64,000 nt of DNA from Sandaracinus amylolyticus (GTDB taxonomy: Bacteria > Myxococcota_A > Polyangia > Polyangiales > Sandaracinaceae). The stretch lies in assembly GCF_021631985.1 (NCBI RefSeq), contig NZ_CP070225.1, positions 5,642,001-5,706,000 on the forward strand. The letters run 5' to 3'. Both the position numbers and the translations under genes were made by a program. Shown one piece after another: positions 25,070-38,932 of this stretch (position 1 is its first letter; every line of letters starts with the position of its first letter). The notes under the pieces were generated by a model, which did not search any database, was not told where the DNA came from, and saw only the letters and a list, made by a program, of their open reading frames with translations.

Positions 25070-25225
25070 GCTCGTCGAGCCCGCGACTCCGTCCGTCGGC
25101 CACATGCGTCCGACGTGAGCGCGTATTGCGTGCGGCGACGCGCCTCACTGCTGGTCACGGTCGTCGCTCGGTGTCGAGCGCCTATGTCCGCGAAGGGAGC
25201 AAACCCTGACGGAAAGGAGCGAACG

Positions 25226-25747
25226 ATGGCGCGACCGACCGAGATCGCCGGGCAGGTGATCGGCAAGCTCAAGGGCGCGAAGCAGGCGTTGACCGGCGGA
25301 GCGGGGATCTTCGAGCGCCTCTCGACCGAGCACGGCGAGATCTCGACGCTGATCCGGCGTGTGGCCGCCAGCACGGACGACTCGAACGTACGCAAGGAGC
25401 TCTACGGCCGCATCCGGACCGAGCTCGCCGCGCACGCGCGGGCGGAGGAGAAGGAGGTCTATTCGACGTTCCGCGGAATTCCCGACATCGCCGGCAAGAT
25501 GGACGACTCCGCCGACGAGCATCATCGGATCGAGCGGTATCTCGATCAGCTGGACGTGCTGCCGATCGACGGCGATCGGTGGAGCGACGTCTTCCGCGAG
25601 ATGATGATGCTCGTGCAGCACCACGTCATCGAGGAGGAGCAGCAGATCTTCCCGGCTGCGAAGAAGGCGCTCTCGAAGGAGCAGTCCTTCGCGCTCGAGC
25701 AGCGTTATCTGGAGTCGAAGGCGAAGGAGCTCGACTCGTTCACCTGA
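25226..25747 (+). CDS. Hemerythrin/HHE cation-binding domain protein
   Basis: 173 residues. The four-helix pattern carries the iron ligands: LSTEHGEI, AHARAEEKEVY, DEHHRIERYL and VQHHVIEEEQQIFP, in the order expected for HHE domains. Such proteins bind a diiron centre and sense or store O2, NO or iron. The start is ATG 25226 behind AAAGGAG; upstream frame is non-coding. It is a single-gene unit, divergent from the antiporter, closed by a strong terminator at 25765. Confidence 0.92.
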   Translation: MARPTEIAGQVIGKLKGAKQALTGGAGIFERLSTEHGEISTLIRRVAASTDDSNVRKELYGRIRTELAAHARAEEKEVYSTFRGIPDIAGKMDDSADEHHRIERYLDQLDVLPIDGDRWSDVFREMMMLVQHHVIEEEQQIFPAAKKALSKEQSFALEQRYLESKAKELDSFT

Positions 25748-25815: not shown

Positions 25816-27234
25816 TCACTGGAGCTCGGGCAGTCGCCACGCGAAGTCGCGGCGCAGCGTTCGTGCTGCGGTCAGCGCGGCGCGACCCAGGATGCCGGCA
25901 TAGGTCGGGAACGAGAACGGCAGTCGCGCGAGATCGTCCACCGTCATCCCCGCGCTGATCGCGATCGCCGCGAGCTGCACGATGTCGACGGCGCGATCTC
26001 CGACGACGTGACAGCCGACGATGCGCGAGGTCGTGCGGTCGACGATCAGCTTGCAGAAGCCCGACGCACGACCGTCGATGATGGCGCGCGTGCCGCAGTC
26101 CAGTCGGATCACGGTGACGAGCGCGTCGAGCTCGGCGCGCGCGCGTGCTTCGCCGAGGCCGACCTGCGCGTACTCGGGATCGGTGAAGCTGCCGATCGGG
26201 CTCACGTGCTTCGTCAGCGGCAGCACCGCGCCGCGGACCGCGTTCGTGCCGGCGACGTAGCCCTCTTCCAGCGCCTGCGGGACCACCATGAGATGACCGG
26301 TGACGTCGCCCGCCGCGAGCACGTGCGGCGCGGTGGTCCGGAGATGCTCGTCGACCCGCACGTGGCCGCGCTCGTCGGTCGCGACGCCGGCGACGGCGAG
26401 ATCGAGCTCGGCGGTGTTCGCCACCCACCCTACTGCGACCACCGCGAGCGCTGCCTCGGCGGTGGCTCGATCTCCGTCCTTCGACACGATCATTCGCACG
26501 CCGTGCGCCGTCTTCTCGAACGCTTCGATCGCTCCGAAGTCGGTTCGCACGATCATCCCCGCGTCGCGGAACGCCGTCGTCACTTCTGCCGAGACGTCTT
26601 CGTCCTCCGTCGGCAAGATGCGCGGGCCGGCCTGGAACAGCTGCACGCGCGTGCCGAACGCGTGGAAGATCGACGCGACCTGCACGCCCGTCGCGCCCGC
26701 GCCGATCACCAGCATCGAAGGCGGCACCGACGTCAGCGCCCACGCGTCGCTGTGCGTCGCCGTCAGCTCGGCGCCGGGCACCGAGAGCCGCCGGCTCGCG
26801 CCGCCGGTGCAGAGGACGATCGACTCGCCGTCGAGGCGCAGCCCGCTCGCGGTCTCGATCGTGTGCGGTGCGACGAAGCGCGCGGCCCCGGTGTTCTCGA
26901 GGATCGAGACGCCCGCGGACTCGCACTGTCCGCGCAGCGCGGATTGCCGGCCCACGTGATCGACGACCTCGCGGACCCGCTCGAGCAAGCGCGGATAGTC
27001 GACCACGGGCTCACCGGCGGAGATGCCATATCGCGAGAGCTGTCGCGCCTCGCGCACGAGGCGCGCCGCGTGGGCCAGCGTCCGCACCGGCACCGGACCG
27101 TCGTTGGCGGCCATCCCGCCGAAGCGCTCGCGCGCGACGAGCGCAGTGCGCGCTCCGAGATCCGCGGCCCGCAGCGCGGCGACCACGCCCGCAGGCCCCG
27201 CTCCGATCACGACGACGTCGAATTCACTCTGCAT
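25816..27234 (-). CDS. Pyridine-nucleotide-disulfide-oxidoreductase-fold flavoprotein lacking the redox cysteines
   Basis: 472 residues. FAD site GAGPAG (11-16), NAD(P) site VIGAGATGVQVAS (about 178-190), the LAAGDVTG flavin motif and the C-terminal dimer domain are intact. The segment that normally reads GGTCxNxGCxPSK is GGMAANDGPVPVRTLAHAAR (39-58), with neither cysteine. The C-terminal catalytic HPT motif is SFPTYAG (His replaced by Phe). So it cannot perform classical dithiol chemistry, and a simple NAD(P)H:acceptor or quinone reductase role is more likely. It ends a likely operon with a DyP peroxidase gene 13 bases upstream. Confidence 0.88.
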   Translation of the reverse strand: MQSEFDVVVIGAGPAGVVAALRAADLGARTALVARERFGGMAANDGPVPVRTLAHAARLVREARQLSRYGISAGEPVVDYPRLLERVREVVDHVGRQSALRGQCESAGVSILENTGAARFVAPHTIETASGLRLDGESIVLCTGGASRRLSVPGAELTATHSDAWALTSVPPSMLVIGAGATGVQVASIFHAFGTRVQLFQAGPRILPTEDEDVSAEVTTAFRDAGMIVRTDFGAIEAFEKTAHGVRMIVSKDGDRATAEAALAVVAVGWVANTAELDLAVAGVATDERGHVRVDEHLRTTAPHVLAAGDVTGHLMVVPQALEEGYVAGTNAVRGAVLPLTKHVSPIGSFTDPEYAQVGLGEARARAELDALVTVIRLDCGTRAIIDGRASGFCKLIVDRTTSRIVGCHVVGDRAVDIVQLAAIAISAGMTVDDLARLPFSFPTYAGILGRAALTAARTLRRDFAWRLPELQ

Positions 27235-27247
27235 CTCTCCCTCACGA

Positions 27248-28582
27248 TCACGGGAGCTCGGACAACCAGCGCAATGCGCTCAGGCTCGGCAGGAAGCAGT
27301 ACTCCCCGCCTCTCGTGACGACGAAGCGCGGCAATCCGTCGAGCCGTCGCGGGATGGGCTTTCGGGGAATCGAGAATCGACCCTCTCCGTCCGCCGATCC
27401 CGTCACCGGGTCTCTCGCGTCGCCGAGCCCGATGAACTCGCCGCCGTTGATCCACTCGGATTGCACGAACTCGAATTGCCGCCCCAGGTGCGCGCCGACG
27501 AACGCGAAGATGAGACCGCGATCCGCGCCGTCGTCCTCCATCACACCCTCGGGGAGCATCGGCCCGTACGCCGTTCCGCGGCGGATCATGCGATGAAGCC
27601 GGGCCACCCCCGCGACCTGCGCGTCGCGCGGGTTGCAGCGCCGGATGTGAGAGCCGATCGGCGTGCGATATCCGGTGGGATCGTCGGCGCGATAGAGGAA
27701 CGCATTGTTGCGACCACGGTCCGCGCCGAGCGCGGGATCGTCGTGGAACGGACAGAGCGCGAGCGGCGCGCCGCTGCGCCAACGACCCATCATCTTCGCG
27801 GCGAGGAGCTCTTCGTCCTCGGGGCTCGTCGCGCGCGATCGCAGGTACTGGCGGAACGCGGCGACCCGCTGGTGCAGCTTGCGGAAGACGACGTACGTGC
27901 CGTTGCGACCGAGCACGTCGGGCGAAGGCATCGGCGGGAACCCGCCGAGCTCGTCGCGATATCCCAGCACGAGCTCTCCTGCCTTCAGCGGGATCTCCTC
28001 GGGATTGCTCCCCGGGACGCCACTGCCCTCGATCGCCGGGTGACTGATGCCGTCGCGGAATCCGAACGGCTCTCTCTCGGTCGGCAGTGCGTGGCAGTCC
28101 TGGCGCCAGATCGATTCGACTCCGGGGAGCGCCCGGAGCGCGTCTCTCGCCCGCGCGATCGAGGGCTCGAGCAGCGCGCGATCGGGCGCGAGCGCGACCA
28201 GCACGACGTGCACGTCGGACGTCCCGAGCGGCTTCTCCCAGTGCGCCGGTGCGCTCTCTCCGGTGTCGCCCAGCGCTGCGGCGCGGCTCGCCATTCCCTG
28301 CTTGAGCTCCCACGCGAAGCTCTCGAGCGATGCGGGCGGCACGCCGAGCGCGCTCAGCCCGTGGAACGTGAGCGCCGCGTTCAGCCAGGTGTCCCCGAGC
28401 GCGCTCGTCGTGTGCGCGGCCGACGCGACTCGCTCGCTGAGGCGGCGCATCAATTCCCTGCCAGCACTGCGATCGATGATCTTCAGGAGGATGTACGTCG
28501 CAGCGTAGGGCGTGGGCCGAGGCCGCAGCGCACCACTCTGGATGTCGTCGAGCTCCAGCGACACGTCCGCGTCCACTCCCAT
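27248..28582 (-). CDS. Dye-decolourising (DyP-type) heme peroxidase
   Basis: 444 residues. The DyP signature GxxDG is FGFRDGIS (Gly174, Asp177, Gly178), and the proximal heme ligand His312 sits in GSHIRRCNPRDA with the distal Arg. The ferredoxin-like double fold is apparent. DyP enzymes oxidise aromatic dyes and lignin-like compounds with H2O2. No Tat or other signal is visible, so this copy is probably cytoplasmic or encapsulated. It lies third in a four-gene run; the next gene encodes the Cys-less flavoprotein. Confidence 0.93.
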   Translation of the reverse strand: MGVDADVSLELDDIQSGALRPRPTPYAATYILLKIIDRSAGRELMRRLSERVASAAHTTSALGDTWLNAALTFHGLSALGVPPASLESFAWELKQGMASRAAALGDTGESAPAHWEKPLGTSDVHVVLVALAPDRALLEPSIARARDALRALPGVESIWRQDCHALPTEREPFGFRDGISHPAIEGSGVPGSNPEEIPLKAGELVLGYRDELGGFPPMPSPDVLGRNGTYVVFRKLHQRVAAFRQYLRSRATSPEDEELLAAKMMGRWRSGAPLALCPFHDDPALGADRGRNNAFLYRADDPTGYRTPIGSHIRRCNPRDAQVAGVARLHRMIRRGTAYGPMLPEGVMEDDGADRGLIFAFVGAHLGRQFEFVQSEWINGGEFIGLGDARDPVTGSADGEGRFSIPRKPIPRRLDGLPRFVVTRGGEYCFLPSLSALRWLSELP

Positions 28583-28639
28583 GCTCCACTGATGCTTCTG
28601 TCCGGAACCGATCCTGGAACGAACATCCGGGCAGCAGCA

Positions 28640-29656
28640 CTAGCTCATCGACGCCGTGGCGAGGTTCCTCCAGAAGCGCTCCAAGCTCTCGTCGCCTCCG
28701 AACAACGTGCTGAAGATCGTCGAGTCCGCGACGAGCACGTCCCCGGCGCGCCCGCCGCCCGGAGGCAGCCACACGAGCGCGTTGAACGCAGTGTTCCCCG
28801 CCGCGGTGAACGGGTGCGGCTTGGACGTGTCGATCGGCTGTCGTGCGAGCACCCGCGCCGAGCTCGACGGATCGGTGACGGCGTAGTGCGGAAGGTGCAT
28901 GTGGAAGTTGAAATTCGTGACTCCCTCGAGCCAATGACGGGAGTCGAGATCGCGCGCGATCTCGAGCGGCGCGATCCGCGTCGTCCCCCGCTGCACTGCA
29001 GGCCGCAGCCCGTGCCGGTTCTCGACCGGAATCCCCAGGCCCTGCATCAGTGATCGCGTGTAGCGCCCGAAGCGCTGCTGTCGCGGCACCAGCGCATCAC
29101 CGTGGTGCGCGTACTCCATCGCGCGCTCCTCCAGGTCGGGCGACGCGCCGACGTCGTGGTGGGGCCCGATCAGGAGGCACGTGCCCTCGCGCGCGAGGAA
29201 CGATCGAGCGGCCTCGATCTCCTCGGACGACGCTTCCTGTCCGGTCACCATGTGGTCGAGCCCGAACACCAGCAGCGTGTCGACGTCGGAGAGCACGCGC
29301 TCGTCGAGCGGAAGACGGAAGCCCGCCTGATCGACGCGCTGGAACACCGGCACTCGGTGCCCGGTCGCCTCCTCGATCACGTTCTGGAATCGCACCCACG
29401 CCCAGAAGAAGAGCTCGAGCGATCCCGCGATGCCCTGCTGGAACATGCCGGGATCGGCGAAGCGCGGATCCTCGTACTGAGGCCAGAGCACGCGACGGAC
29501 CTCGGTCATCGTGGAGAACCGATTGTCCATCTGCGTGACGTCGCGATTGGCCTCGCCCGGATAGCTCCACGCGATGTAGACGCTGACGCGCCGCCGGCCC
29601 GCGACGTACTTCCGCGGCGAGTGGCTCTGGTTGTACGTGCGCGCGGGCTCCCTCAT
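28640..29656 (-). CDS. Unrecognised protein of a DyP-linked operon (338 aa)
   Basis: No family recognised. The N-terminus is YNQSHSPRKYVAGRRRVSVY, and a central piece (VDTLLVFGLDHMVTGQEASS, EEIEAARSFLAREGTCLLIG, PHHDVGA) has the alternating strand-helix pattern of class I glutamine-amidotransferase-like folds (as in ThuA-type proteins). The catalytic Cys-His pair is not apparent. It lies between the 175-residue protein (stop 7 bases upstream of this start) and the DyP gene (57 bases), so it is probably co-transcribed. No signal peptide. Confidence 0.7.
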   Translation of the reverse strand: MREPARTYNQSHSPRKYVAGRRRVSVYIAWSYPGEANRDVTQMDNRFSTMTEVRRVLWPQYEDPRFADPGMFQQGIAGSLELFFWAWVRFQNVIEEATGHRVPVFQRVDQAGFRLPLDERVLSDVDTLLVFGLDHMVTGQEASSEEIEAARSFLAREGTCLLIGPHHDVGASPDLEERAMEYAHHGDALVPRQQRFGRYTRSLMQGLGIPVENRHGLRPAVQRGTTRIAPLEIARDLDSRHWLEGVTNFNFHMHLPHYAVTDPSSSARVLARQPIDTSKPHPFTAAGNTAFNALVWLPPGGGRAGDVLVADSTIFSTLFGGDESLERFWRNLATASMS

Positions 29657-29663
29657 GAGTCCC

Positions 29664-30191
29664 TCACTGCATCTGCTCGAGCATCCGCGAGAACGCGCTC
29701 TTCAGCTCCAGCGCCTTCTTGATCTCGTCGGTGCTGACGTACGGATATTCGCCGTACTCGAGGAAGCTCGGACACTGGTGCGCACGGACGAACTTCACGA
29801 ACGCGTCGGGGTTCGTCTTCCAGTCGGAGGGGAAGCCCTCGAGGTTCTCGAACACCGTGTCGACGCCGGCCTTCTTGAAGAGCGCGACTGCGTCTTCGGT
29901 GTATTTGTCGAAGTCGGTGTCGAAGATGCCCTGGTACATGAACCGAGTGTCGTCGTCGAAGAGCACCCAGCGCAGGTAGTGCAGCTTGAGCGGCGCGAGC
30001 AGGCTCGGATCGCTCTCCAGCGCCTTCGCGAGCTTCGCTCCGTAGCCCCGGATCGCGTCCGCGCGTCCCGGCTTCACGTTCGCGATGATCGTGAATCCGT
30101 AGCAGGCCGGCGTCTTCGGCCAGATCGGGCCGTACTTGCCCTTCTCCCAGGACTCGTCGCTCTTCGGGATCGCCATCGCTGCCGGCTGCAT
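29664..30191 (-). CDS. Conserved-looking 175-aa protein, possible alpha/beta-barrel (Dabb-like)
   Basis: First gene of the DyP-linked run. ATG 30191 is preceded by AAGGA; a second Met at 30176 is possible. The sequence is well mixed (YGFTIIANVKPGRADAIRGY, LHYLRWVLFDDDTRFMYQGI) and has the GR-adjacent strand-helix-strand rhythm of dimeric alpha+beta barrels, the fold shared by DyP and chlorite-dismutase families. I cannot name a family. Its position suggests it partners the peroxidase or binds its substrate. Confidence 0.7.
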   Translation of the reverse strand: MQPAAMAIPKSDESWEKGKYGPIWPKTPACYGFTIIANVKPGRADAIRGYGAKLAKALESDPSLLAPLKLHYLRWVLFDDDTRFMYQGIFDTDFDKYTEDAVALFKKAGVDTVFENLEGFPSDWKTNPDAFVKFVRAHQCPSFLEYGEYPYVSTDEIKKALELKSAFSRMLEQMQ

Positions 30192-30542
30192 CGGAGTCGT
30201 CCTTGCTGGTCCCGCGGACCGGTTGGGTGACTCCGACGGCAGCTGTGCCCGGTCCGAGATGGCGCAAGTTGCTGGGCGCGGGAACGAGGCTCGCACGCCA
30301 GAAATGGCCGGTGCGTCCGATGCGACATGCCACTTCGTCCGGCCTCGTCGTGGTGCTCGGCGCCGCGTCGTGCGCGCGTGCACGGGAGCTGCACCCCGCG
30401 GAGGCGAGCGCCGGCGCTCACTCGCAGCACCTCGCGAATCCGGTCCCGCGTGCCGCTCGGCCTGGGCGCGCAGGCGAAGTGGCACCCTCGCCGCACGTTC
30501 TCTGGTGCGGATGTCGCATCGCCCGCCGCCCGGGAGAGAGCG
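30192..30542. other. Intergenic region between divergent DyP operon and sulfatase operon
   Basis: 351 bases. Several frames stay open because of the GC content, but none has coding character with a ribosome site. It should hold two divergent promoters. A GGGAGAGAG lies just upstream of the sulfatase ATG (30543). No clear palindrome or terminator. Confidence 0.4.
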
Positions 30543-32876
30543 ATGAAGGACGATTTCCGAGGCAAGATCGACATCGACATCCGCCGTTCCGAGCCCGACT
30601 GGCGCCCGTATCTGCCGCCCTCGGCGAAGCCCGGCGCACCCAACGTCCTCTACGTGGTGTGGGACGACACCGGCATCGGCGCGTGGGACATCTATGGCGG
30701 TCTCATCCGCATGCCGAACCTGCAGCGGATCGCGAAGTCCGGAATCCGATTCACCAACTGGCACACGACCGCGCTCTGCTCGCCGACGCGCTCCTGCCTG
30801 CTCACGGGGCGCAACGCGACGCGCAACAACATGGCCTGCATCACCGAAGGCGCGCAGGGATTTCCGGGCCTGAGCGGGGTAATTCCCCCGGAGAACGGGT
30901 TCCTCTCCGAGATCCTCGTCGAGCACGGATATTCGACGTTCTGTATCGGAAAGTGGCACCTGACTCCGTCGACCGAGGAGATGCTCGCCGCGAGCCGGCG
31001 CACGTGGCCGATCGGTCGCGGATTCGAGCGCTTCTACGGCTTCCTCGGCGGCGAGACGAATCAGTACTATCCCGATCTCGTGCTCGATCAGGGCCCGATC
31101 GATCCCCCGGCGACGCCCGAGGAGGGCTATCACCTCTCGTCGGATCTCTGCGATCGGGCGATCCAGCTCATCGCCGACACGAGCACCATCGCGCGCGACA
31201 AGCCGTGGCTCTGTTATCTGTCGTTCGGCGCGAACCATGCCCCGCACCAGGTGCCGAAGGAGTGGGTCGATCGGTACGCCGGCGTGTTCGACATGGGGTA
31301 CGAGAAGTATCGCGAGCTCGTCCTCGCCAACATGAAGAAGCTCGGGATCGTCCCCCAGAATACCGAGCTCTCTCCGATCAACCCGTGGGCGGCGCCCGAC
31401 GTCATCGCCGAGAACGATCTCGTGCGGCCCTGGGAGTCGCTGACCGAAGGCGAGAAGAAGCTGTTCTCCCGCATGGCCGAGACGTACGCCGCGTTCTCGA
31501 CGTACACCGATCACCAGCTCGGCCGCGTCCTCGATTTCCTCGAATCGACGGGACAGCTCGAGAACACGATCGTCGTCGTGGTCTCCGACAACGGCGCCAG
31601 CGGCGAGGGCAGCCCCAACGGGTCGGTCAACGAGAACCGCTTCTTCAACGGATGGCCGGACTCGCTCGACGACAACCTGAAGGCGCTGGACCAGCTCGGC
31701 AGTCCTTCGACCTACAACCACTATCCGACGGGCTGGGCCTGGGCGTTCAACACGCCCTACAAGATGTTCAAGCGCTACTCGTTCGAGGGCGGCACCGCAG
31801 ATCCGTTCGTGATCTCGTGGGCGAAGGGCATCGACCCGAAGAAGTACGGCGGCCAGCTGCGCGATCAGTACTGCCACGCAGTCGACGTGGTGCCGACGAT
31901 CCTCGATCTCGTGGGCATCGAGCCGCCTCGCGCCATCAAGGGTGCGACCCAGAGCCGCATCGACGGCCTCAGCCTCGTCCCCGCGATCCGCGACGCGAAA
32001 TCGGCCTCGCCGCGCACCACGCAGATGTACTCGATGCTCGGCACGCGCGCGCTCTATCACGACGGATGGAAGGTCGTCGCGAAGCACGGCGCGATCTCGG
32101 GGAAGGGCAAGTTCCTCGACGATGCGTGGGAGCTCTATCACGTCGCGTCGGATCGCTCGGAGCGCATCGACGTCGCGGAGAAGCACCCCGAGATGCTCCG
32201 GGCGCTGGTCGCGCTGTGGTACGCCGAGGCCGGGCTCAACCACGCGCTGCCGCTCGACGATCGCACGGCCGCCGAGATCCTCGGTATCGAGCGCCCCTCG
32301 ATCGCGAAGGTCTCGAACCGCGCCGTCTACTACCCGGGCATGAGCGAAGTGCCCGAGGAGGTCGCGATCCGACTGCGCAATCGCTCGTTCGTGATCGGCG
32401 CGTCGCTCCGCGACGTCACGAAGGGCTGCGAAGGCGTGATCGTCTCGCAGGGATCGCGCTTCGGCGGACACACGCTCTTCGTGCAGAACGGGAAGCTCGT
32501 CTATCTCTACAACTTCCTCGGCATCGAGCAGTTCCGGTTCGAGTCGAGCGATCCGTTCCCGACCGGGCGCGTGACCATCGGAGTGAAGTTCGACAAGACC
32601 GGCGAGAATCCGAAGTACGTCGCGAACGGGAACCTGGAGCTCCGGATCAACAAGAAGGTCGTCGCCAAGGGCACGATGCGCACCCAGCCGGGCGCGTTCT
32701 CGCTCACCGGTGAGGGCCTCAACGTGGGCAAGGATCGCGGCGACCCCGTGAGCTCGTCGTACCGCTCGCCGTTCACGTTCCGCAACGGGATCATCGAATT
32801 CGTCGCGTTCGACACCTCGGGAGAGCCCGAGCGTGATCTCGAGCGCGACTTCGCCGCGATGCTCTCGCGCGACTGA
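30543..32876 (+). CDS. Arylsulfatase (type I formylglycine sulfatase)
   Basis: 777 residues. The metal-binding Asp pair is VVWDDTG (41-42). The sulfatase signature CSPTRS has Cys79, which is converted to formylglycine for catalysis. Further conserved segments are ALCSPTRSCLLTGRN, the FCIGKWHL loop (Lys and His) and TIVVVVSDNGASGEG (Asp-Asn metal site). Length and C-terminal extension fit large arylsulfatases of soil bacteria. No signal peptide is visible at ATG 30543; a longer upstream frame is Arg-rich and unlikely coding. The Cys-type motif is matched by the maturase gene 8 bases downstream, forming a self-contained sulfatase operon. Confidence 0.93.
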   Translation: MKDDFRGKIDIDIRRSEPDWRPYLPPSAKPGAPNVLYVVWDDTGIGAWDIYGGLIRMPNLQRIAKSGIRFTNWHTTALCSPTRSCLLTGRNATRNNMACITEGAQGFPGLSGVIPPENGFLSEILVEHGYSTFCIGKWHLTPSTEEMLAASRRTWPIGRGFERFYGFLGGETNQYYPDLVLDQGPIDPPATPEEGYHLSSDLCDRAIQLIADTSTIARDKPWLCYLSFGANHAPHQVPKEWVDRYAGVFDMGYEKYRELVLANMKKLGIVPQNTELSPINPWAAPDVIAENDLVRPWESLTEGEKKLFSRMAETYAAFSTYTDHQLGRVLDFLESTGQLENTIVVVVSDNGASGEGSPNGSVNENRFFNGWPDSLDDNLKALDQLGSPSTYNHYPTGWAWAFNTPYKMFKRYSFEGGTADPFVISWAKGIDPKKYGGQLRDQYCHAVDVVPTILDLVGIEPPRAIKGATQSRIDGLSLVPAIRDAKSASPRTTQMYSMLGTRALYHDGWKVVAKHGAISGKGKFLDDAWELYHVASDRSERIDVAEKHPEMLRALVALWYAEAGLNHALPLDDRTAAEILGIERPSIAKVSNRAVYYPGMSEVPEEVAIRLRNRSFVIGASLRDVTKGCEGVIVSQGSRFGGHTLFVQNGKLVYLYNFLGIEQFRFESSDPFPTGRVTIGVKFDKTGENPKYVANGNLELRINKKVVAKGTMRTQPGAFSLTGEGLNVGKDRGDPVSSSYRSPFTFRNGIIEFVAFDTSGEPERDLERDFAAMLSRD

Positions 32877-32884
32877 GGCTCGGC

Positions 32885-34171
32885 ATGTCCGCGGCGACCA
32901 TCCCTGCCAGCGATCTCGTGAGGCGTCGGAGCGAGGTGCCGCGCACGGCGTTCCATCTCCTCGCGAAGCCCACCGGCGCCATCTGCAACCTCGACTGCTC
33001 GTATTGTTTCTTCCTCTCGAAGGAGCGGCTCTATCCGGAGAGCTCGTTCCGGATGAGCGACGAGCTGCTCGACGCATATCTCACGCAGTATCTCGAGTCG
33101 CAGTGGGGCCCCGAGATCACGGTCGCGTGGCAGGGCGGCGAGCCGACGATCATGGGGCTCGACTTCTTCCGGCGCGCGGTCGCGATGGCGGAGGCGAAGA
33201 AGCGCCCGGGGACGCGCCTCGCACATACCCTCCAGACCAACGGCACGCTGCTCGACGAGGCGTGGTGCGATTTCCTGCGCGAGCATCGCTTCCTCGTCGG
33301 GCTCTCGCTCGATGGGCCGCGCGCGCTGCACGATGCCTGTCGCGTCGACAAGGGCGGTCACCCGACGTTCGACAAGGTCATGCGCGCGCTGCGGCTCCTC
33401 CAAGCTCACGAGGTGGAGATCAACGTGCTCACGACGGTGCACGCCGCGAACGCCGATCATCCGCTCGAGGTCTATCGGTTCCTCCGGGACGACGCACGGG
33501 CGCGCTACATGCAGCTGATCCCGATCGTCGAGCGCGACAACGACACCGGCTTCCAGGAGGGCACCGAGCTGACGTCGCGCTCGGTCGGCGCCGACCAGTA
33601 CGGACGCTTCCTCACCGCGATCTTCGACGAGTGGGTGCGGCGCGACGTCGGCACGGTCTTCGTCCAGCAATTCGACGTCGCGCTCGCGTCGTGGGCCGGA
33701 GAGCCGCACGGGCTCTGCGTGCACTCGGAGACGTGCGGGGCCGCGCTCGCGCTCGAGCACAACGGCGATCTCTATTCGTGTGATCACTTCGTCGAGCCGG
33801 CGCACCGACTCGGGAACATCCGCGACCGCCACATGAGCGTGCTCGCGAGCTCCGAGCGACAGCGCGACTTCGGGCGTGCGAAGCGAGACTCCCTCCCTCG
33901 CGCCTGCCGCGAGTGCGAATATCGATTCGCGTGCCACGGCGGCTGTCCGAAGGATCGCGTCGCGCGCGCGTCCGACGGAGAGCCCGGCCTCAATCACCTC
34001 TGCGCCGGATATCTGCGCTTCTTCCGGCACATCGATCCCACGATGCGCCGCATGGTCCAGCTGCTGCGGAGCGGGGACGCGCCCGCACGCGTCATGTTCG
34101 AGCGCGCGGGCCGCAACGACCCGTGCCCCTGCCGCAGCGGCAAGAAGCACAAGCACTGTCACGGTCGCTGA
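32885..34171 (+). CDS. Anaerobic-type sulfatase-maturating radical SAM enzyme with C-terminal SEC-C motif
   Basis: 428 residues. The radical SAM cluster CNLDCSYC (Cys34, 38, 41) binds 4Fe-4S and SAM. SPASM-type auxiliary cysteines follow: GLCVHSETCGAALAL, YSCDHF, CRECEYRFACHGGCPKDR and CAGYL. The enzyme oxidises the sulfatase Cys (or Ser) to formylglycine. The last residues (GRNDPCPCRSGKKHKHCHGR) are a SEC-C zinc motif, usually seen in SecA. It presumably modifies the sulfatase encoded 8 bases upstream. The SEC-C tail on a maturase is notable and could help it engage nascent or unfolded substrate, but that is inference. Confidence 0.93.
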   Translation: MSAATIPASDLVRRRSEVPRTAFHLLAKPTGAICNLDCSYCFFLSKERLYPESSFRMSDELLDAYLTQYLESQWGPEITVAWQGGEPTIMGLDFFRRAVAMAEAKKRPGTRLAHTLQTNGTLLDEAWCDFLREHRFLVGLSLDGPRALHDACRVDKGGHPTFDKVMRALRLLQAHEVEINVLTTVHAANADHPLEVYRFLRDDARARYMQLIPIVERDNDTGFQEGTELTSRSVGADQYGRFLTAIFDEWVRRDVGTVFVQQFDVALASWAGEPHGLCVHSETCGAALALEHNGDLYSCDHFVEPAHRLGNIRDRHMSVLASSERQRDFGRAKRDSLPRACRECEYRFACHGGCPKDRVARASDGEPGLNHLCAGYLRFFRHIDPTMRRMVQLLRSGDAPARVMFERAGRNDPCPCRSGKKHKHCHGR

Positions 34172-34175
34172 GCGT

Positions 34176-38932
<4,757 letters not shown>

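Follow-up and report, generated by a model that had tools for sequence, protein, structure and literature searches.

Operons dedicated to DyP-type peroxidases are already known, namely efeUOB and those of encapsulin cargo (reviewed in PMC8197335), and the cassette described here resembles both systems in that a DyP is part of a dedicated operon. Unlike in those systems, however, neither FTR1/EfeO nor encapsulin was found, whether in the tested window genes or in the recurrent neighbors of the cassette. SaDyP1 and SaDyP2 of Streptomyces avermitilis, which like the window DyP are bacterial class V enzymes, have an unknown physiological role, and the word "operon" is absent from the paper describing them (PMC8395514). 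SaDyP1 oxidizes dyes as a single protein (PMC8395514), so activity may not depend on a partner. The DyP of Deinococcus radiodurans (DR_A0145, PDB 8re2/8re3), another class V enzyme, is reported to be low-spin, with six-coordinate heme, and to lack activity at pH 7.5 when purified alone; above pH 4 it shows hardly any peroxidase activity, and what triggers it is left open (PMC10820274). UVC/vacuum stress raises the levels of the DR_A0145 and DR_A0146 proteins in D. radiodurans (PMC5731708).

The locus reported here combines a class V DyP with two proteins, termed P1 and P2, and an accessory flavoprotein (Table 1). The window, meaning the whole 64-kb stretch of DNA that was analyzed, sits within a 10.96-Mb genome. 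The first-pass annotation had described four minus-strand genes separated by 7, 57, and 13 bp, and the ORFs of P1, P2, DyP, and the flavoprotein were found at exactly its coordinates, with Shine-Dalgarno-like purine-rich stretches 5' of P1, P2, and the flavoprotein. The cassette promoter is expected in the divergent region between P1 and the sulfatase. That annotation also did not know the set as a described system, and none was described in the open-access literature to which our searches were limited, where papers on operons, fusions, lipids, or stress gave no account of the cassette or of a P1 partner.

Table 1. Features of the cassette locus, in window coordinates
Feature	Position	Strand	Remark
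P1 (175 aa), core cassette gene; predicted Dabb/ABM-like ferredoxin fold and N-terminal arm	29664..30191	-	
P2 (338 aa), core cassette gene; predicted ThuA/IFT52/class-I-amidotransferase-like fold	28640..29656	-	
DyP-type peroxidase (444 aa), class V (former C) branch	27248..28582	-	
Flavoprotein, FAD/NAD(P)-binding, disulfide-reductase superfamily; accessory fourth gene	25816..27234	-	
Intergenic region, divergent, P1 versus sulfatase; putative promoter site	30192..30542	.	sulfatase start set at 30543 from homologue

Divergent from P1, an arylsulfatase gene is followed by one for an anaerobic-type sulfatase maturase (window 30327-34171, plus strand), the latter matching TIGR03942 with SPASM and SEC-C. 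The pair was rejected as part of the cassette because it is missing from the 80 loci fetched below and from the corresponding site in the sister genome; there, P1 has the gene of window 34176-36002 as its immediate upstream neighbor, with no sulfatase pair between. On a Rhodococcus koreensis plasmid (L122:1840-4194, minus strand), a sulfatase 54% identical to that of the window is divergent from a P1-like/DyP/catalase cluster, so that the window pairing recurs at a distant locus, perhaps by coincidence. At the other end, a hemerythrin-domain gene (window 25115-25747, plus strand) is convergent with the flavoprotein gene and 81% conserved in the sister genome; its score does not reach the cut-off for the PA2171 persister family. 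PADLOC gave no defense-system match.

The window DyP passes the TIGR01413 cut-off (112.2 versus 100.5 bits) and is complete, as first annotated, with the distal Asp in GFRDG, the distal Arg in NGTYVVFR, and the proximal His in HIRRCNPR, all conserved in relatives. It has no match to PF04261 and falls below the cut-off of PF21105; a PF04261 search of its own genome was empty because the Pfam model misses this DyP branch. No Tat signal was seen by eye. Assignment as EfeB was rejected (TIGR01412, 22.8 bits where the cut-off demands 428, with no efeUO neighbors among the genes tested), as was assignment as encapsulin cargo, there being no encapsulin among eight window genes or the listed flanking-gene families. 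The D. radiodurans DyP is ~47% identical to the window DyP over the whole protein and shares its distal Asp and Arg and proximal His, although it has GYKDM where the window DyP has GFRDG. Directly upstream of it is a P1-like gene, M7777_RS14260 (protein WP_051618841.1), with 1 bp between its end and the DyP gene; the DyP encoded there matches PDB 8re3 at 101 of the 101 residues compared. The other neighbor in that locus is a catalase-family gene, and P2 is missing. The available part of PMC10820274 does not mention the upstream P1-like gene, and we hypothesize that its product is the activity trigger of this DyP.

It is clear from comparison across genomes that P1, P2, and DyP are a conserved gene unit. 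A four-sequence P1 alignment scanned against one genome per species (84,980 species) yielded 355 relatives, and P1, P2, and DyP occur together in all of the best 80, which were fetched, in the order P1-P2-DyP on one strand in 78, where the matched segments are a median of ~48 and ~38 bp apart. The first-pass annotation had proposed a search for the same four-gene order in other genomes; the order does recur and the neighbors are conserved for P1-P2-DyP, but not for the flavoprotein, which adjoins the core in just 14 of the 80. A P1-DyP-P2 order is found in Caulobacter and Pollutibacter and on Nostoc plasmids. The cassette occurs in five phyla (Myxococcota, Actinomycetota, Pseudomonadota, Bacteroidota, and Cyanobacteriota) and also on Streptomyces and Nostoc plasmids. 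As the genes flanking it are mostly unrelated between these independently fetched loci, the association is more than a chance neighborhood. Across the five phyla, P1 is 74-85% and DyP 44-78% identical, so that P1 is conserved at least as well as DyP. A second DyP lineage is made up of the Nostoc and Pollutibacter sequences, 62% identical to each other and ~44% to the others, with GYRDR in three sequences, while P1 (~68-76%) and P2 (~62-70%) are still close there, indicating that the partners are retained while DyP diverges. Close matches (>60%) to the core P1 and to full-length P2 fall in the identical 8 of 72,556 plasmid records and the identical 3 of 379 Myxococcota genomes. A fourth Myxococcota genome holds only a 36-residue P2-like stretch (L102:6916-7017, 67-71% identity), apparently left over from a cassette that was lost.

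The association of P1 with DyP extends well beyond the core cassette. When a profile was run blind against 379 Myxococcota genomes, complemented by a search of 97 relatives, every distant Myxococcota P1-like domain examined directly adjoins a DyP or is fused to one, and often two such domains lie in tandem within one ORF. One Myxococcota ORF of 1216 aa fuses a P1-like domain and a DyP; by its heme-Cys motif, and without Pfam confirmation, its C-terminal part looks like a P450. All 27 P1 or P1-like matches in the 72,556 plasmids likewise adjoin or are fused to a DyP, the fusion being a Sulfitobacter protein annotated as cytochrome P450. The converse also holds: among the best 42 plasmid DyPs, at least 36% identical to the window DyP, 36 were checked, and each has a P1-like neighbor or fusion. 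Of three more distant DyPs, those at 34.6% and 29.5% have neither, and the one at 33.5% has a P1-like domain fused to it. Profile comparison of P1 with DyP gave no sequence homology (probability 0.5%), leaving the idea of P1 as a split-off half of DyP unsupported.

Several unusual architectures were seen among these loci. Giant fusions of P1-like domains and DyP are encoded at L112:6312-9959, L120:3490-8418, and L140:908-5296 (all plus strand), two of which resemble P450s in features or annotation, and a single ORF at L113:5008-7293 (plus strand), directly upstream of a DyP, joins a catalase-like domain to two tandem P1-like domains.

P1 belongs to no Pfam, NCBIfam, PADLOC, or PDB sequence family, its one weak match being far below the cut-off. 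Its AlphaFold model (mean pLDDT 77) is ferredoxin-like, with a beta-alpha-beta-beta-alpha order, and the best structural neighbors are ABM/Dabb proteins (Z 5-7.2, rmsd ~3-4 Å over 84-109 residues). The model thus lends moderate support to a Dabb/ABM-like fold and agrees, at moderate scores and with no curated sequence family, with the possible Dabb fold suggested at first for the 175-residue protein. Tetracenomycin F2 cyclase, rhamnose mutarotase, and MhuD share the predicted ferredoxin fold, whereas P1 differs from these ABM/Dabb proteins in having no sequence-family match, in its N-terminal arm, and in always occurring with a DyP. The first-pass annotation had suggested P1 as a possible substrate or scaffold and the flavoprotein as a possible source of reducing equivalents; the comparative evidence favors P1 as a DyP partner, and we propose that it is dedicated to this DyP branch, as an activator or a substrate presenter.

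P2 also lacks any match to a Pfam, NCBIfam, PADLOC, or PDB sequence family; its match in genome G258 is a Mur ligase and was discarded as a false positive. The AlphaFold model (mean pLDDT 78, pTM 0.83) resembles the IFT52 N-terminal domain (5fms, Z 15.1), a ThuA-like protein (1t0b, 12.8), and many class-I amidotransferases (10-11), and P2 is accordingly predicted to have a ThuA/class-I amidotransferase-like fold. The amidotransferase fold of the earlier annotation is therefore borne out by the model but not the nucleophilic Cys that such an enzyme carries: two family alignments contain no invariant or nearly invariant Cys, making P2 an amidotransferase in fold only. The invariant residues instead include H166 and H167, H184 and H185 followed by G and D187, H252xH254LP, and H281 (the last only nearly so in the second alignment), and this His-rich set, with the missing Cys nucleophile and Pfam match, distinguishes P2 from the ThuA-like, IFT52 N-terminal, and class-I amidotransferase-like domains with which it shares the predicted fold. 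In Rhizobium, a 42% identical P2 homologue lies in a DUF2282-DUF692-[P2]-DUF2063-like-DoxX operon without P1 or DyP (L018:6658-10332, plus strand), which we take to be bufferin-like.

The flavoprotein is an optional member of the cassette. It carries both Pyr_redox domains (PF07992, 170.6 bits; PF02852, 82.7 bits) of the dihydrolipoyl dehydrogenase/mercuric reductase family, and its best profile scores are to Lpd and MerA, both below their cut-offs. Unlike that family, it has neither the redox cysteines nor the C-terminal His-Glu pair: alignment with 4jdr sets GGMAANDGPVPVR against GGVCLNVGCIPSK of Lpd and FSFPTYAG against HAHPTLHE, and a 13-sequence alignment finds the CxxxxC pair and His-Glu missing from its relatives as well. 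With these residues lost, it cannot be a disulfide reductase, and its first description as a Cys-less flavoprotein of disulfide-reductase fold was correct. Where it adjoins the core, it lies downstream of DyP in several Myxococcota and Caulobacter and upstream of P1 in Nonomuraea/Thermoactinospora (one copy fragmentary), and the 14 loci include two from Catellatospora with divergent homologues (40-43%) on the opposite strand. The usual fourth gene in actinomycetes encodes a symporter of the SBF (bile-acid:sodium symporter; Na+/organic-acid) family, found after DyP in ~37 of the 80 loci by clustering and by Pfam match in 22 of the 51 downstream genes scanned; upstream of the cassette, no family recurs comparably.

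A small gene of the catalase family commonly accompanies P1-like/DyP pairs outside the core cassette. In Deinococcus, Acinetobacter, and several alphaproteobacteria, such pairs also lie near fatty-acid genes, encoding 3-hydroxyacyl-CoA dehydrogenase, acyl-CoA thioesterase, oleate hydratase, or a patatin, which suggests an organic-acid or lipid substrate. For the window cassette this suggestion is indirect, as no lipid gene is directly beside it. At L118 and L124, a nearly identical block of oleate hydratase, 3-hydroxyacyl-CoA dehydrogenase, thioesterase, catalase, P1-like, and DyP genes stands beside a heavy-metal P-type ATPase, and its presence on plasmids of different alphaproteobacterial genera points to recent mobility.

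Our tentative preference, which we would place somewhat short of an even chance, is that P1 is a dedicated DyP partner and that the cassette is an oxidative module for a small organic acid or lipid, served by P2 and the accessory proteins. The cassette would then encode a cytoplasmic module in which ferredoxin-fold P1 docks on DyP and either brings its heme site into a competent state at neutral pH or presents a substrate to it, DyP oxidizes a small organic acid or lipid-like compound with H2O2, and P2 processes the product or substrate, its conserved His/Asp-rich set possibly forming a metal site. Transport or redox steps, where needed, may be provided by the SBF symporter in actinomycetes or by the Cys-less NAD(P)H flavoprotein in myxobacteria and some actinomycetes.

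Other readings have to be set against this one. The cassette might be an oxidative-stress unit in which DyP removes peroxides or oxidized lipids, P1 and P2 serve as heme or metal chaperones, and the partners define no pathway, as could be argued from the catalase-family protein usual in the wider P1-DyP loci, the response of DR_A0145 and DR_A0146 to UVC/vacuum, and the presence of heme-degrading MhuD among the fold matches of P1. However, the core cassette has no stress gene among its recurrent neighbors, where the SBF transporter is found instead, and a peroxidase with as little activity above pH 4 as PMC10820274 reports for DrDyP fits this role poorly; we regard it as rather unlikely. Nor do we consider it likely, and the chance seems slimmer here, that P1 is itself the enzyme, an ABM-type cofactor-free monooxygenase or cyclase in a small biosynthetic or catabolic cluster to which DyP and P2 contribute further steps, with no activation of DyP by P1. 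Polyketide decarboxylase/cyclase/ABM proteins do rank among the top structural neighbors of P1, and the linked transporters (SBF, MFS, and SLC13-type) would suit such a cluster, but the Z-scores are in a range where a shared fold tells little about function, and P1-like domains stay with DyP when all other neighbors change, are tandemly duplicated, and become fused to DyP, behavior that fits a partner better than one pathway enzyme.

It would be highly improbable, in our judgment, for the gene order to reflect only selfish or hitch-hiking synteny, that is, recent horizontal transfer without functional coupling. The patchy distribution, the occurrence on plasmids, and the nearly identical wider-type copies carried by plasmids of alphaproteobacteria are what such transfer would leave. 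Against it, P1 and P2 have diverged by as much as 34% and 41% between loci, and the pairwise distance matrices of P1, P2, and DyP agree (r 0.79-0.85, reached in 0 of 999 permutations). The association also persists in the permuted order P1-DyP-P2 and as fusions, and natural loss of single cassette genes, which if frequent would favor hitch-hiking, was not seen in the 80 loci, fetched via P1 relatives.

The partner reading can be carried further, to the doubtful proposal that DrDyP-like class V DyPs are half-enzymes needing a cognate P1-type subunit for activity and specificity at physiological pH, and that the P1-P2-DyP cassette is a new, widespread peroxidase/peroxygenase system of two to four proteins. 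No physiological substrate is known for bacterial class V DyPs. As a near-constant companion, P1 is a candidate for the trigger of DrDyP activity left open in PMC10820274, and it may be the missing partner of DyPs that have so far been studied alone. The cassette also defines two protein families, so far unannotated, in hundreds of soil bacteria.
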